64,000 nt of DNA from Bacteroidales bacterium (GTDB taxonomy: Bacteria; Bacteroidota; Bacteroidia; Bacteroidales; UBA932), in NCBI GenBank assembly GCA_028690215.1, contig JAQVBQ010000003.1:8272-72271 (forward strand), given 5' to 3'. The translations under genes were made by a program, and so were the position numbers. The notes under the pieces were generated by a model. That model saw only the letters and a program-made list of their open reading frames with translations. It did not search any database and was not told the origin of the DNA. Of this stretch, positions 51,343-57,649 are shown piece after piece (the stretch's first letter is position 1; every line of letters begins with the position of its first letter).

Positions 51343-53103
51343 ATGTTCAATACGTGCTCTCCATACCTGAAAATGCTGTTTGGCAAGGGTATCACCTGGT
51401 ATCCATACCTAACGGAGGATCTTATTGACTTAGCTGAGAAAGAGGGTAAACTTATCTTTCAACATATTGGTTATATGAGCAATATGCACATCAGAGAGAT
51501 GGCAGAAAAGCTCTTTTCAGATCAAAGAGTGGTTAAAATTCTCAATGATAATTTCATCTGTATTGCTGAAGATAAGGAGAGTGATCCGGAATCCTATCTT
51601 ATAGGACTCGACCTTCTATTCCTGAATCAGGATTTCTCCTATGGCCCTATGAATTTGTTTGTTATGACGGACAGAAAGCCGATCATCTGTTTCTCAGACT
51701 GCGATCCGGAATACTTTCTCGATGTTGCTGGAAGCATTGTAGAAGCAAATAAAGGAAAGAAGCATCTTTTAGCTCAACTCTCCGATGAGTTGTCAAAAAG
51801 AGCAGTCAATACAGGCATCATAACAAATAAGATTACATCAGAAAACATAACTCCGGAGGTTATGGAAGCCAATACCAGACAATGGTATCTAGCAATGTTT
51901 GAGAATGATTTCATATATCAGAGGAGACCTTTTACCCCAAATCCCAGTTCTTTAATTACTCTGGTTGAATATTTACAATATTTTAAAGATCAGGAGATTT
52001 CAGACAAAATAGAATCATTGCTCGACCATCTGCAATATTCAGCATTGTTCGATCCTATAGATGGAGGATTCTTCAAACAGGCAAGCGATTATAGTTGCAA
52101 TACTCCGTTTTATGAAAAGACTTTGGAGGAAAATGCACATTTTGTTAATCTTTATTCTCTAGCTTACAAGCATTTTAATAAAGAATCTTATAGGAAAACA
52201 GCATTATTGACGTACTCTTTTATAAAGGAGAAATTATACTCTAAAAATGGTGGCTTCATAGGAAGCACTACCCTAACGACATCTTCTTATGAATCAAACT
52301 ATTATCAGTATTCTCTCAATGAATTATTGTTAATGTTTCCTGCAAGATATATGGATATTGCATTAGCTTTAGGAATGGACATTACTGTAAATAAGTTTGA
52401 TAAACAGATACCGGTGCGCAATTCAAGAACTTACAGTATAATTCATGATGAGGAGATTAAAATACTCAAGGAGAGAAGGTCGGAACATCGTGGATATTAC
52501 ACTGATAAAAGAGAGGTCACTTCGTACATCTCCCAGCTGGTGGAGTCCCTGGCGATATCCTCTGTGTTATTGAACGAACCTTCACTATATAAAGAGGCAG
52601 CGGAAATCATGGAGTATCTGTTGGTACACAACAGAAATGAAGACGGGAGATTGTACCGTTACAACTGCTGTCAGAAAAGTTCCATCCCCGGCTATCTTTC
52701 CGATTATTCAGACTTGATTGCGGCTCTGATTGAATTACATAAAGCGTCAGGTGAAGAAAACAGTGATTTTAAACTATATGCAGGGAAATATATAGACTTT
52801 GTATTAAAGCATTTTTATAAACCGGATAATGGAATGTTCAGTAAATCTGAGTGTTCTATACTGCCTGACACTATTCCGTATAAGAGAGAGTCCAATATAG
52901 ACTTTATCAAGCCATCAGCCAATTCAGTTATGGCAGGCAATCTAATCTCTTTCTACGAAATTAGTGGAAATAAAGAGTATCTGGATATTGCTGCTCAACA
53001 AATTATGAATATAGCTCCCAATCTGCACGCAGCAGGTCCGATGCTCGCAAGCTGGGCTCAGAAAATATTGAAATATATACGCCTTAAAAAGCAGATGTCC
53101 TGA
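51343..53103 (+). CDS. YyaL/SSP411-family protein with degenerate thioredoxin-like domain
   Basis: The 586-residue protein follows the DUF255 family: a thioredoxin-like N-terminus (SPYLKMLFGKGITWYPYLTED, IFQHIGYMSNMHIREMAEKLF, LNDNFICIAEDKESDPES) and then an alpha/alpha barrel with DPIDGGFFKQASD and FYEKTLEENAHFVNLY. In normal members the first domain reads IGYSTCHWCHVM and the later DREERPD; here the CHWC cysteines are replaced (MSNMHIR) and the acidic motif is altered. It is also about 90 residues shorter than usual. A redox role is therefore unlikely; the barrel may still be active. Its 3' end overlaps queA by 20 bases. Confidence 0.85.
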   Translation: MFNTCSPYLKMLFGKGITWYPYLTEDLIDLAEKEGKLIFQHIGYMSNMHIREMAEKLFSDQRVVKILNDNFICIAEDKESDPESYLIGLDLLFLNQDFSYGPMNLFVMTDRKPIICFSDCDPEYFLDVAGSIVEANKGKKHLLAQLSDELSKRAVNTGIITNKITSENITPEVMEANTRQWYLAMFENDFIYQRRPFTPNPSSLITLVEYLQYFKDQEISDKIESLLDHLQYSALFDPIDGGFFKQASDYSCNTPFYEKTLEENAHFVNLYSLAYKHFNKESYRKTALLTYSFIKEKLYSKNGGFIGSTTLTTSSYESNYYQYSLNELLLMFPARYMDIALALGMDITVNKFDKQIPVRNSRTYSIIHDEEIKILKERRSEHRGYYTDKREVTSYISQLVESLAISSVLLNEPSLYKEAAEIMEYLLVHNRNEDGRLYRYNCCQKSSIPGYLSDYSDLIAALIELHKASGEENSDFKLYAGKYIDFVLKHFYKPDNGMFSKSECSILPDTIPYKRESNIDFIKPSANSVMAGNLISFYEISGNKEYLDIAAQQIMNIAPNLHAAGPMLASWAQKILKYIRLKKQMS

Positions 53104-54301
53104 ATAGTATGGAGCTGTCTCCATAACTGAGAAATCTGAAATCATTGTTGAGAGCATATTGATATATCTCTTTCCAGTAATCTCCCACAAATGCAGCAAT
53201 AAGAAGCAATAGAGTACTATTAGGCTGATGGAAGTTCGTGATAAGTATCTCTACTATCCTGAATCTGAAAGAGGGAACTATTATTATTCCTGTTTTTGTG
53301 TCAATATGATCTCTTCCGTTCTTATCCATCCATTCCAGAAGAGCCGTCAAGGATTCTGTTGTCGTGTATCTATACTCTCTCTCATAAGGTTCCCACTGAT
53401 TTACCGGAGTCGGACTCCCCTCTTCAATGCAATGAATTCCGAGATAATATAAAGATTCCAGGCATCTTGTAGATGTAGTCCCTACAGATATTACCTTTTT
53501 ATCACCCCTGTCAATCAGCTTTTCAATTAATTCTCTTGATACTGTAAATGGTTCATAATGCATGTGGTGGTTCTTTATAAACTCGGATTTAACCGGTAAA
53601 AAGGTTCCGGCCCCAACGTGCAGGCATATATTATTTATATCAATCCCTTTCTCTTGAATCCTTTTTAGTACGTTTTCTGAGAAATGAAGCCCTGCAGTCG
53701 GCGCAGCCACTGATCCCCTGTTTTGGGCATATAATGTTTGATATCTTTCAGTATCAGATTCTTCAGCCTCACGATTCAGATATGGAGGAATAGGTACTTT
53801 TCCGCATTTTTCCATTAGTTCAGAAAAAGGAATTTCCCCTTCCCATGAGAACTCTACAATTGATTTATCCTCTACCTTGCTTATCAATTTAGCCTTTAGA
53901 CAGTATTCATCCAATGAATTATGGCCATTGGAGTCAAAATAGATATATCCATCCTTCCATTTTTTACTGTTACCTATTATACATATCCATGAACAGGATT
54001 CAGTAGATGCAAATGAGACATTGTATTCATATGGCAGGTTAGGTTCCAGACAGAAGATCTCGATTTGAGCGCCACTCTCTTTTCTGAAAAACAATCTTGC
54101 AGGAACGACTTTGGTATTATTGATTACCATCAATGAGTCATTTGGCAATAACTCGTCGAGATTTGAAAATTTTGAATCGCGAACCTTGTTGTCTTGAAAT
54201 ATTAAAATCTTGGAATCTTCTCGGTTTGGAAGAGGGTATTTAGCAATTTTCTCTTCAGGCAGTATATATGTATAGTCTTTAATGCTGATTTCCGGGTACA
54301 C
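53084..54301 (-). CDS. queA: QueA, S-adenosylmethionine:tRNA ribosyltransferase-isomerase
   Basis: QueA adds the epoxycyclopentane ring to 7-aminomethyl-deazaguanine in tRNA, forming epoxyqueuosine. The family begins near ISIKDYTYILPEEKIAKYPLPNRE; other conserved segments are NNTKVVPARLFF, GSVAAPTAGLHFS, HVGAGTFLPVK and ITNFHQPNSTLLLLIAAF. The track extends 47 residues upstream, but that part is unlike QueA and overlaps a -7 promoter element. The GTG at 54301 (406 residues) is the best start. Confidence 0.93.
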   Translation of the reverse strand: MYPEISIKDYTYILPEEKIAKYPLPNREDSKILIFQDNKVRDSKFSNLDELLPNDSLMVINNTKVVPARLFFRKESGAQIEIFCLEPNLPYEYNVSFASTESCSWICIIGNSKKWKDGYIYFDSNGHNSLDEYCLKAKLISKVEDKSIVEFSWEGEIPFSELMEKCGKVPIPPYLNREAEESDTERYQTLYAQNRGSVAAPTAGLHFSENVLKRIQEKGIDINNICLHVGAGTFLPVKSEFIKNHHMHYEPFTVSRELIEKLIDRGDKKVISVGTTSTRCLESLYYLGIHCIEEGSPTPVNQWEPYEREYRYTTTESLTALLEWMDKNGRDHIDTKTGIIIVPSFRFRIVEILITNFHQPNSTLLLLIAAFVGDYWKEIYQYALNNDFRFLSYGDSSILFRTSAF

Positions 54302-54315
54302 AATATTTTTTTTGA

Positions 54316-54323
54316 CAAAAATA
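54316..54323 (-). promoter_or_regulatory. -7 promoter element of queA
   Basis: On the minus strand TATTTTTG matches TAnnTTTG and lies 14 bases upstream of the GTG at 54301. Its position inside the track ORF argues that the upstream ATG at 54442 is not used. Confidence 0.5.
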
Positions 54324-54744
54324 TAAAAATAGAAGTGTGGAAAAAAATATTTAATAATATTAACTTTGTTTACAAATGTTACACACAACAATAACCATTG
54401 TATGTTACATAAGTATACATTAATATAGGTTAAATATCTCAATCCTTACTCACAAATGTATACATTACATATGTAATATTGAAATTACTATTAAGCATTA
54501 CATATACTACATATCCAGTTTGTTATGTGATTTAAATGAAGTTATTTATTGGTTCTAATACCCTATTTAACCCCTATTTAAGGCAATTAGTTGATAAAAT
54601 TGTGATTATCCATTCATAACTATTGGAATACCAGATATATAGATGTTTTAATTGGATTATTGGCTTAGATTAACCCTATTTATATTAGACTATATCAAAA
54701 GTACTGATAGAAATAGACTTTAATAATATTATCCCATCTCTTAA

Positions 54745-54806
54745 TTACATTTGTATAAACAATATATGTTACATATGTAATTAATATAATGCTTACATTT
54801 GTATAA
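54745..54806 (+). promoter_or_regulatory. Three operator-like sites at exact 24-base spacing over the XRE promoter
   Basis: TTACATTTGTATAA (54745), TTACATATGTAATT (54769; its first 12 bases are a perfect palindrome) and TTACATTTGTATAA (54793) are spaced exactly 24 bases apart. The outer two include TACATTTG, a match to the -7 consensus, so operator and promoter coincide. The downstream copy ends 5 bases before the first ATG of the XRE gene. Autoregulation by the XRE protein is the simplest reading. Confidence 0.65.
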
Positions 54807-54810
54807 CTTA

Positions 54811-55296
54811 ATGTTTACAAAAATGAGAAACAGGTTACAGCAGTTTTTAAATGCAGAACAATTATCTCCTGCCCGATTATCTGATATTATTGGTATTCAA
54901 AGATCCGGAATGTCACATATACTATCAGGAAGGAATAAACCCAGCTTTGACTTCATACAGAAGCTATTGCTTAAGTTCCCTACCCTTAATTCAGAATGGC
55001 TGATAACAGGAAAAGGAAAAATGTACAAGGAGAGTCAGGTTGTAAACCACCAGAGTTATCAAAATCTTGTTTTACCGGAAGTCGATGAAATTGCAGAAAA
55101 CCATCAGGAATCAAAAGAGATACAGCAAGATAGAAGAATTTCGGAGAATTCTGAACTCTCTGAGAATTCAATAATCGGATCCGAAAAGGAAGAAGCACGT
55201 AATAATTCAAAGCAAATTGTGAAAATGATCCTTATTTATTCTGATGGTACATTCTCTGATTTTAGACATGAGGATAGATTATATCCTGCAGATTAA
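54811..55296 (+). CDS. XRE-family helix-turn-helix regulator
   Basis: The track begins at TTG 54799; ATG 54811 or ATG 54823 (MRNRLQQFLN) is more likely, and the second leaves room for a leader after the overlapping -7 element. Residues up to about 75 form an XRE-type HTH with SPARLSDIIGIQRSGMSHILSGRNKPSFDFIQKLL and LNSEWLITGKGKMYK, a common Bacteroidota family. A polar, Glu/Ser/Asn-rich linker and a short conserved tail (VKMILIYSDGTFSDFR) follow. No S24 peptidase domain is present. It probably controls its own promoter; other targets are unknown. Confidence 0.85.
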   Translation: MFTKMRNRLQQFLNAEQLSPARLSDIIGIQRSGMSHILSGRNKPSFDFIQKLLLKFPTLNSEWLITGKGKMYKESQVVNHQSYQNLVLPEVDEIAENHQESKEIQQDRRISENSELSENSIIGSEKEEARNNSKQIVKMILIYSDGTFSDFRHEDRLYPAD

Positions 55297-55325: not shown

Positions 55326-56351
55326 ATGTATAGATTTATTCGTCCTTTACTTTTTTCAATACTTCCTGAGCGGGCTCACATTCTCACTGTGAATCTGCTG
55401 GTTTTTTTAAGATATATCCCCTTCTCAGGGATGGTTTTAAGATGGCTCTACTCATATAATAATAAGAGTCTGGAGCGTGAGGTTTTTGGGCTTAAATTCA
55501 GAAATCCTATTGGAATGGCGGCCGGATTCGATAAGAACGGTGACATTTACAACGATCTTTCGAACTTCGGGTTTGGTTTTGTCGAAATAGGTTCATTAAC
55601 ACATGTTGAGCAGATTGGTAATCCAAGACCAAGGGTATTCAGAATCATTGAGGAAAATGCCATTATTAACCGCATGGGTATAAACAACAAAGGAGTAAAA
55701 CATGCTGTAAGCTATATGAAATCTAATAAACCCAGATTGATTATAGGTGGAAACATAAGTAAAAGCACCTCTTGCAGTAATGAAATGGCGGCTCTGGATT
55801 ATGAGAAATCATTTACTCAGCTCTATGATTTTGTCGATTTCTTCGTGCTCAATGTCTCTTGTCCAAATGTTAAAGGGTTGGTTAAACTACAGAATATTAC
55901 CGCTCTTTCTGAGATTATCGACAGACTTACTGCAATTAGAAGATTCAACGATGAATATAGGCCGATATTGCTGAAGGTATCACCTGATCTTACAAATGAC
56001 CAGCTTGACGAGATAATTGAATTGATACTTATTTCAGGAATTGATGGAATTGTAGCAACAAACACAACCAGCACAAGAGAGCTTTTAAAAGATAATGGAG
56101 CTGCTATTGAGGCAATTGGTGATGGTGGTCTAAGCGGAGAGCCGCTCTTCAAAAGGAGTCTTGAGGTTGTCAGGTATATCCATAAGAAGAGTGCAGGAAT
56201 GTTGCCAATCATAGCTGTTGGAGGTGTTACAACCCCTGAAAGAGCTAAGGAGATGCTTGATGCCGGAGCTTCATTGGTTGAGGTGTATACCGGTTTTATA
56301 TATAATGGTCCTGGTTTCGTAAAGAGTATTCTTAAATATCTATCTAAATAA
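55326..56351 (+). CDS. pyrD: Dihydroorotate dehydrogenase, class 2-type (quinone-linked) architecture
   Basis: The 341-residue protein has the class 2 N-terminal membrane-associating helices (about 1-40) and the FMN barrel: NPIGMAAGFDKNGD, FVEIGSLTHVEQIGNPRPR, NRMGINNKG, GDGGLSGEPL, AVGGV. It oxidises dihydroorotate in pyrimidine synthesis, passing electrons to quinone. The catalytic-base segment reads NVSCPNVKG, with Cys179 where class 2 enzymes usually have Ser and class 1 have Cys. cinA follows after 8 bases. Confidence 0.93.
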   Translation: MYRFIRPLLFSILPERAHILTVNLLVFLRYIPFSGMVLRWLYSYNNKSLEREVFGLKFRNPIGMAAGFDKNGDIYNDLSNFGFGFVEIGSLTHVEQIGNPRPRVFRIIEENAIINRMGINNKGVKHAVSYMKSNKPRLIIGGNISKSTSCSNEMAALDYEKSFTQLYDFVDFFVLNVSCPNVKGLVKLQNITALSEIIDRLTAIRRFNDEYRPILLKVSPDLTNDQLDEIIELILISGIDGIVATNTTSTRELLKDNGAAIEAIGDGGLSGEPLFKRSLEVVRYIHKKSAGMLPIIAVGGVTTPERAKEMLDAGASLVEVYTGFIYNGPGFVKSILKYLSK

Positions 56352-56359
56352 TTTAAAGG

Positions 56360-57628
56360 ATGTTAACTGCTTCTATCTGCACAATTGGTGACGAGATTCT
56401 GATCGGGCAAATTGTGGATACAAACTCCTCTATGATTGCAAAGGAGCTAAATAAATGTGGAATAAAGGTCAATAAAATGATATCTATTCAGGATGATGAG
56501 AGTGAGATTGTTTCGTCCCTGGAAGAGTGCTCACATATAAATGATATTTTGATTGTTACAGGTGGATTAGGTCCTACCAAAGATGATATAACAAAAAGAT
56601 CATTAGCACATTTGTGCAGATGTGACAAATATAGATATGATGCTTCTCAGGCATCAATAATAGATGAAATTTGTAGTAGAAGGGGTATAGTTCTTTCTCA
56701 ATTAAATAAAGATCAGGCACTTGTTCCTGAATGTTGCAGGGTTCTACCTAATAGAATGGGAACTGCTCCCGGAATGGTATTCACCCTCCCTGCCGCGGAA
56801 GATAGAAAAGTCCTTCTTTTTTCCCTTCCAGGTGTACCATATGAGATGGAACATCTGTTACCATCTGTTATTAAGACGATTAAAGAGGAGTTTGTTTGTG
56901 AAAACATATTCCACAGAACCCTGCTGACATATGGAATTCCTGAGTCATTACTGGCATCTAAGATAGAGAGTTGGGAGGATAGCCTACCTGATGAGATAAA
57001 ACTGGCCTATCTTCCAAGTCCACAGAGTGGTGTAAAATTGAGAATCTCAATATATGGCGGTGATTTCTCTAAATCTTCACTTATAGCAGAAGAAGAGGCA
57101 AATAAACTCAGACCCTTACTAGGCAGTGCTTTATATGGTGAAAATGAGGAAACGCTGGAGTCTGTTATTGGAGAGTATCTCCTAAAGAACGGAAAGAAAA
57201 TTTCTGTGGCTGAGTCTTGTACATCAGGAAAATTATCATCTCTTCTGACCTCTATCCCCGGTTCTTCCGCCTACTTTACCGGCGGAGTTGTTGCCTATGG
57301 CAATAACATTAAGATGAATATACTTGGTGTGAAGGAAGAGACCATTGAGAAATATGGTGCTGTCAGCTGTGAATGTGTGAAGGAGATGGCTGAGGGAATT
57401 AAAAGGCTGATGAAAACAGACTATGCAATAGCCACATCCGGTATAGCGGGACCCTCGGGTGGTACTGATACAAAGCCAGTAGGTACAATATGTATAGCTA
57501 TAGCCGGCCCTGATTTTATTGAAACATATGTTAAAGTATTCAATGGAGACAGAATCAGGAACGTTCAGAGGTTTTCTGCAGAGGCACTCAACCTTTTGCG
57601 CTTAAAGCTTGGTATACAGCTAATGTAA
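56360..57628 (+). CDS. cinA: CinA-family protein (MoCF-like domain plus NMN deamidase PncC domain)
   Basis: The 422-residue protein has an N-terminal molybdopterin-binding-like domain (ICTIGDEILIGQIVDTNS, VTGGLGPTKDDITK, RMGTAPGMVF, LFSLPGVPYEM). The C-terminal PncC domain carries VAESCTSGKLSSLLTSIPGSSAYFTGGVVAYGN and TSGIAGPSGGTDTKPVGT. PncC deamidates nicotinamide mononucleotide in NAD salvage, here perhaps matching the NAD-using LigA, since NMN is a ligase product. It is probably co-transcribed with pyrD. Confidence 0.95.
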   Translation: MLTASICTIGDEILIGQIVDTNSSMIAKELNKCGIKVNKMISIQDDESEIVSSLEECSHINDILIVTGGLGPTKDDITKRSLAHLCRCDKYRYDASQASIIDEICSRRGIVLSQLNKDQALVPECCRVLPNRMGTAPGMVFTLPAAEDRKVLLFSLPGVPYEMEHLLPSVIKTIKEEFVCENIFHRTLLTYGIPESLLASKIESWEDSLPDEIKLAYLPSPQSGVKLRISIYGGDFSKSSLIAEEEANKLRPLLGSALYGENEETLESVIGEYLLKNGKKISVAESCTSGKLSSLLTSIPGSSAYFTGGVVAYGNNIKMNILGVKEETIEKYGAVSCECVKEMAEGIKRLMKTDYAIATSGIAGPSGGTDTKPVGTICIAIAGPDFIETYVKVFNGDRIRNVQRFSAEALNLLRLKLGIQLM

Positions 57629-57636
57629 TATAAACA

Positions 57637-57649
57637 TTACACATTGTAA
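57637..57649. promoter_or_regulatory. Dyad TTACA-CAT-TGTAA upstream of the serine hydrolase gene
   Basis: A perfect 5-base dyad with a 3-base spacer lies 35 bases before the serine-hydrolase ATG. It resembles the TTACATATGTAA sites of the queA-XRE gap, with one extra base in the centre, so it may be another target of the XRE regulator. This is a weak inference. Confidence 0.35.

Follow-up and report, generated by a model that had tools for sequence, protein, structure and literature searches.

Genes and putative operator sites between queA and xre

The window, a 64,000-nucleotide stretch of a Bacteroidales genome, contains the divergent genes queA and xre, separated by a gap of 522 bp with a G+C content of 22%, followed downstream of xre by pyrD and a cinA-family gene (Table 1). 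Judging from the sequence, the start of queA is probably the GTG at 54301, and the reading frame is open to 54442; pyrD is probably co-transcribed with xre. A preliminary description of this DNA had claimed an operator array in the gap, and the sites on which that claim was built were all found. Three TTACAT-TGTA sites lie at exact steps of 24 bp (54745, 54769 and 54793), the putative promoter element TACATTTG is present in the first and third of them (P1 and P3), and a second group near queA contains overlapping palindromes, AATGTATACATT overlapping the copy of TTACATATGTAA at 54465-54476. The latter 12-mer is common to both groups, its copies at 54465 and 54769 being 304 bp apart.

Table 1. 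Genes, putative XRE sites and E elements of the queA-xre region (window positions; site offsets are given from the xre ATG)
Feature	Position	Strand	Sequence	Remarks
queA, tRNA preQ1 ribosyltransferase-isomerase	53084..54301	-		Divergent from xre; TIGR00113/NF001140 above cut-off
Distal XRE site D1 (putative)	54370..54381		TTACAAATGTTA	-453; class -456/-444 populated among orthologs
Distal XRE site D2 (putative)	54405..54416		TTACATAAGTAT	-418; 35 bp from D1
Weak site	54450..54466		TCACAAATGTAT	Overlaps palindrome AATGTATACATT (54455-54466); conservation below D1
Distal XRE site, perfect (putative)	54465..54476		TTACATATGTAA	-358; overlaps AATGTATACATT
E1	54509..54552	+	Core YCAGTNNNTTA...TTTA..T.AAGT	PWM score 28.2
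E2, second copy of E	54625..54668	+		PWM score 21.9; 116 bp (11 helical turns) from E1
Proximal XRE site P1 (putative)	54745..54756		TTACATTTGTAT	-78
Proximal XRE site P2 (putative)	54769..54780		TTACATATGTAA	-54
Proximal XRE site P3 (putative)	54793..54804		TTACATTTGTAT	-30; encloses putative -7 box TACATTTG at 54794-54801
xre	54823..55296	+		Conserved ATG 54823; further in-frame ATG at 54811
pyrD, class 2 (quinone) dihydroorotate dehydrogenase	55326..56351	+		Conserved neighbour downstream of xre
cinA-family gene	56360..57628	+		Downstream neighbour in this family
Isolated 13-bp dyad	57637..57649		TTACACATTGTAA	Upstream of serine hydrolase

We compared the number of sites in the gap with the numbers obtained from dinucleotide shuffles of the gap itself. 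Five matches to TTACANNTGTAA (≤1 mismatch) were observed against 0.18 expected; the maximum in 1000 shuffles was two, the observed count thus being reached in 0/1000, and an equally spaced triple of sites was obtained in 0/3000 shuffles. Such words are commoner in sequence as AT-rich as this gap, but the idea that the array arose there by chance is refuted by these shuffles, together with the order-wide conservation described below, and its probability is negligible. An Rfam search of the gap gave no match.

The XRE protein and its distribution

Numbered from the ATG at 54811, XRE comprises an HTH domain (residues 3-66), a disordered linker and C-terminal beta strands. It matches Pfam HTH_19, yet below the cut-off, and a sequence search of the PDB found no relative. 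The predicted model shows a well-predicted five-helix HTH (pLDDT > 90), with the linker disordered and the C-terminal beta segment short. The folds nearest to the HTH model were those of C.AhdI (1y7y), P2 C, P22 c2, SinR and 434 Cro, all with weak E-values, 1y7y being the closest solved structure. Phage repressors and C proteins of this kind autoregulate via paired operators. A literature search on TTACATATGTAA and on an XRE gene beside queA/pyrD or pyrK found nothing relevant.

With the HTH as a query, strong matches were found in 107 of 129 complete Bacteroidales genomes, of which 106 had a single match and the remaining one had two, and a phylum-wide draw gave matches in 14 of 118 genomes. 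The gene is near-universal and single-copy across complete Bacteroidales genomes, and almost every genome of the genus has an ortholog in the same surroundings (queA <- / -> xre - pyrD - cinA); among named relatives, Bacteroidales bacterium CF (CP006772.1) is the nearest. Given a fold closest to those of phage repressors and restriction-modification C proteins, and given that XRE relatives are common in mobile elements, xre could be a domesticated mobile-element or prophage repressor whose old operator region was passively retained. However, the single copy throughout the order, the kept synteny and the strongly conserved non-coding architecture imply that the locus is under selection now, which contradicts passive retention. 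We consider this explanation very improbable; xre may nevertheless have had an ancient mobile origin.

Conservation of the proximal array and its overlap with the promoter

Among 81 orthologous loci, a site (within 2 bp, ≤2 mismatches) was found at -78 from the xre ATG in 43, at -54 in 49 and at -30 in 65, and control offsets had sites in 0-2 of 76 loci (≤1 mismatch). The array proposed as an operator of the XRE gene is accordingly kept at fixed positions and overlaps the promoter; a lack of conservation among relatives had been named in advance as grounds for rejecting it, and this comparison of the gap did not provide them. The -30 site had the centre TT and the right half TTTG in every ortholog that possesses the site (65/65), and P1 and P2 used TT, AA and TA centres freely. 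The -7 promoter consensus is TAnnTTTG (PMC7366714). The invariant TTTG of the -30 site therefore fits a -7 box lying inside the operator, an arrangement that, as its most direct reading, indicates that xre would be autorepressed. The -33 element of the xre promoter was not clear, and the spacing to P2 is short.

Across loci, the sites were spaced 13, 24 or 35 bp apart, in steps of about one helical turn, as expected if adjacent dimers touch; the 35-bp spacing recurred in 16 pairs. An XRE-type HTH gene thus lies directly downstream of conserved palindromes that overlap its promoter, as would be expected of an autoregulatory array. The array is degenerate in two far families (L227 and L247). In XRE homologues from outside the order (L283 and L287), TTACATTTGTAA is present at -40 or -33 from the start codon. 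Given these two loci, the operator and its overlap with the promoter may be older than Bacteroidales.

Distal sites and two helically phased elements

Distal sites around -455, -420 and -360 recur across orthologous loci and share the motif of the proximal sites. They are kept in loci where queA was not detected adjoining xre (L095, L099, L100, L105, L110, L121 and L123), and they are also present in other families (L237 and L265). The preliminary description had placed this second group at the service of the queA promoter. Because the sites persist without queA as a neighbour, a role as the queA operator is ruled out and the distal group belongs to xre. Looping between the distal and proximal groups is plausible, and the case for it is strengthened by two phase-locked elements that lie between them.

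These elements were absent from the preliminary description and were found in the present analysis, in which an alignment of the gap revealed that two conserved blocks between the XRE groups are same-orientation copies of one element (E1 and E2). Judged on related sequences, the E1-E2 separation was 105-108, 115-119 or 127 bp in 42 of the 45 loci with a pair, with empty stretches between the classes, which correspond to 10, 11 and 12 helical turns; the three pairs off these classes (84, 102 and 135 bp) were weak-scoring matches. Families outside the motif building gave separations of 116 bp (G166, G120 and G192) and 104 bp (G189), which takes the lowest class to 104-108 bp overall. On the protein tree, where many branches are weak, the spacing class changed at least nine times, and a difference of 10 bp separates the closely related L083 (117 bp) and L089 (127 bp). 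The class changes and the close pair suggest that the spacing has changed mostly by whole turns. In L227 and L247, the gap upstream of xre is still 800-1200 bp long and AT-rich, and E was undetected with the profile used, beyond which it may have diverged.

The E element is nearly confined to the xre locus. When 2.46 Mb were scanned (the window and nine other genomes, with one place counted twice owing to overlapping stretches), 12 of 13 strong matches were in the gap. The exact consensus matched the window's own genome at the E1 locus only, and with ≤1 mismatch it was found in nine whole genomes only at the xre gap. The exclusivity depends on the full profile, since the short consensus, when three mismatches are allowed, is no commoner than background. 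An E-like match at about 1.37 Mb in CP006772.1, seemingly within an IS66-type transposon and accompanied by no XRE sites, was taken as chance. The E core WWYCARNNNNTTA fits the IHF core consensus WATCAANNNNTTR (PMC8942017) except for the preferred C at the third position, although a general bend site would not be expected to be so nearly confined to one locus. The lack of an inner palindrome rules out E as a Xer site of 11-6-11 geometry. The E1/E2 alignment shows a series of conserved blocks, within E and beside it, with a period of about 8 bp over about 48 bp, which is at odds both with a single helical turn and with a simple dyad.

Confinement of the sites and association of xre with pyrD

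In the whole 2.65-Mb assembly, TTACATATGTAA occurs at two places only, both in the queA-xre gap, and paired TACANNTGT sites 13-17 bp apart occur in the same genome only at this locus (reversed control, 0). The tandem pattern is likewise almost exclusively upstream of xre in related genomes. Single TTACANNTGTAA sites numbered eight genome-wide versus five for the reversed control, so that enrichment is not clear. The genome-wide set of such sites for which the preliminary description had advised a search was thus not found, and because single sites elsewhere are at background, the genome-wide search shows no sign of a regulon of scattered XRE-type sites. The related dyad reported upstream of the serine hydrolase is present as a 13-bp palindrome, but it is one base longer than an XRE site and its spacer differs. 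At the corresponding place, CP006772.1 (L172:12085-12219) has TTACATTATGTAA, in which the arms are kept and the centre is changed. The dyad may be weakly targeted by XRE or may serve a different regulator.

A class 2 pyrD adjoins xre in 73 of 80 loci, and a class 1B pyrD, with pyrK where the sequence was read, lies beside xre in all seven far-family genomes tested (L227, L237, L247, L257, L265, L272 and L279). In the family of the window, a non-orthologous class 2 pyrD has taken the place that the class 1B gene (with pyrK) holds in other Bacteroidales families, and because both types are found beside xre, the xre-pyrD link survived the swap of enzyme type. This persistence would be explained if XRE were a conventional regulator of pyrimidine synthesis that acts on xre-pyrD through a loop between several operators and perhaps responds to a metabolite; the position of the locus near the chromosome terminus (see below) would then be historical. 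However, XRE is without a recognisable ligand domain, the terminus position would be left unexplained, and in three loci (L080, L095 and L100) the array is retained and the stretch read contained no pyrD. Other pyr genes are unlikely to be XRE targets because tandem arrays occur almost only at xre. We regard this explanation as possible, albeit somewhat unlikely.

Position of xre on the chromosome

We took the terminus as the + to - switch of the GC skew at third codon positions, corrected for gene strand, and located xre relative to it in single-contig genomes of 2.4-6.8 Mb (G009, G010, G216, G192, G143, G176, G166, G120 and G189). In all nine (9/9), xre lay at or near the switch, although these are not nine independent cases because only six families are represented. 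The bounds on the distance were about 60-180 kb in eight genomes and 80-400 kb, the loosest, in G189; the skew is noisy, above all in G010. G009 also fits the geometric midpoint, with xre at 1.291 Mb and half the genome at 1.329 Mb. For the window's own genome, whose assembly is fragmented, the position of xre is presumed from that in its close relative. In G010, the third-position skew of one sampled stretch near 840 kb (L214) is opposite in sign to that of the adjacent sequence, which may reflect a recent inversion or an island. No strongly polarised octamer suited to fine mapping of the terminus was common to the genomes examined, and nothing like the XerCD dif site (28 bp, ATAA-N6-TTAT inner palindrome) was detected in the window or, for two genomes, in the stretches sampled around the terminus.

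As a control, neighbours of xre from one genome were mapped in 13 genomes. Elsewhere, the distance from xre reached about 2 Mb for ribH, holA and queA and about 1.2 Mb for ligA, but ligA was within 0.46 Mb in many genomes, and symmetric inversions could preserve part of the position pattern. The scatter of the neighbours compared with the stable xre favours selection on the position of the xre locus. These results raise the possibility that the complex is primarily a terminus element, such as a fork barrier, tether or segregation site, and that autoregulation is secondary. For Tus and RTP, autoregulation results from a ter site within the promoter of the protein's own gene (PMC10331603). Such a role would agree with the position of xre in six families, with its near-universal single copy and with sites that are confined to one locus and serve no detectable regulon. 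However, palindromic sites are by themselves non-polar, one site cluster was found rather than a set flanking the terminus, and xre is often tens of kilobases away from the switch. The proximity of ligA in many genomes means that symmetric inversions could explain part of the stability, and the pyrD linkage suggests ordinary gene control. We therefore hold a primary terminus function to be unlikely, though worth retaining as an alternative.

A model of the xre control region

The reading that we consider likely is that the XRE protein assembles at, and is controlled from, the gap next to its gene, where it would form an autoregulated, phase-locked and probably looped nucleoprotein complex. From the conserved palindromes we infer that XRE dimers would bind TTACAnnTGTAA and that three of them, at -78, -54 and -30 and hence 24 bp apart, would cover the xre promoter, with TACATTTG in the -30 site. 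Because the dimers would cover this promoter, XRE may repress its own gene and probably also the co-directional pyrD. The second cluster, 280-380 bp further upstream, would be held by the same protein. The parallel E1 and E2, whose separation is kept at whole helical turns, would be bound by a separate protein, which might be a DNA-bending protein like IHF or HU or else a dedicated factor. The XRE dimers at P1-P3 would contact the distal cluster across two phased bends or protein clamps at these elements. The simplest geometry would be a looped or wrapped complex in which the distal and proximal XRE clusters meet. The site set may have a further role beyond switching its own gene. Even if only xre-pyrD is regulated, the locus offers a well-resolved natural case of order-wide helical phasing, with a partner protein to find.

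Comparison with known systems

The CI-type operator clusters (OR and OL) of lambda, 434 and P22 resemble the arrangement proposed for the xre gap in that dimers of the XRE fold occupy three palindromic operators over their own promoter and a distal cluster could pair with them by looping; the operators of lambda are about 24 bp apart, as in the xre array. The xre locus differs in that its distal cluster is just about 300 bp away and two dedicated phased elements lie between the clusters. It is also a chromosomal core gene rather than a phage gene, and it is without a lambda-like C-terminal domain and without an opposing cro. The restriction-modification C proteins, which autoregulate by tandem operators, include the closest solved fold (1y7y, C.AhdI); however, no restriction-modification genes are present here, the sites are more numerous, and a distal cluster and E elements are added. 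In P1 parS, ParB boxes surround an IHF bend, so that protein sites lie on either side of a bend element beside the gene of the protein, as may be the case at xre, although no relative of ParA or ParB was seen adjoining and there are two bend-like elements. The half-site letters TACA-TGTA are shared with the CopY/CopR copper operator TACAnnTGTA (PMC7253601), but the regulator family is unrelated and the gene context is different.

Among terminus systems, a domain of the MatP/matS type with many spread sites was rejected since the sites are confined to one gap. The fork traps Tus-ter and RTP-ter are similar in having the gene of a small DNA-binding protein near the terminus, which at xre, too, is probably autoregulated; gene and site were near the skew switch in 9/9 genomes. 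The xre locus differs from them in fold and in having one compact palindromic cluster instead of oriented sites flanking the terminus: the tandem pattern and E (0-1 mismatch) were found essentially only at the xre gap, and oriented sites on both arms were not found. Literature searches for a fork trap or a protein devoted to the terminus gave no example from Bacteroidota. In this dominant gut group, XRE, which is near-universal, single-copy and encoded beside an elaborate set of sites close to the terminus, offers a concrete and testable candidate. We offer as a speculation, doubtful at present, that the XRE clusters and E1/E2 with their factor mark, tether or stop replication while controlling their own protein; if so, the gap would be a previously undescribed terminus element of Bacteroidales, the third such invention and independent of Tus-ter and RTP-ter.
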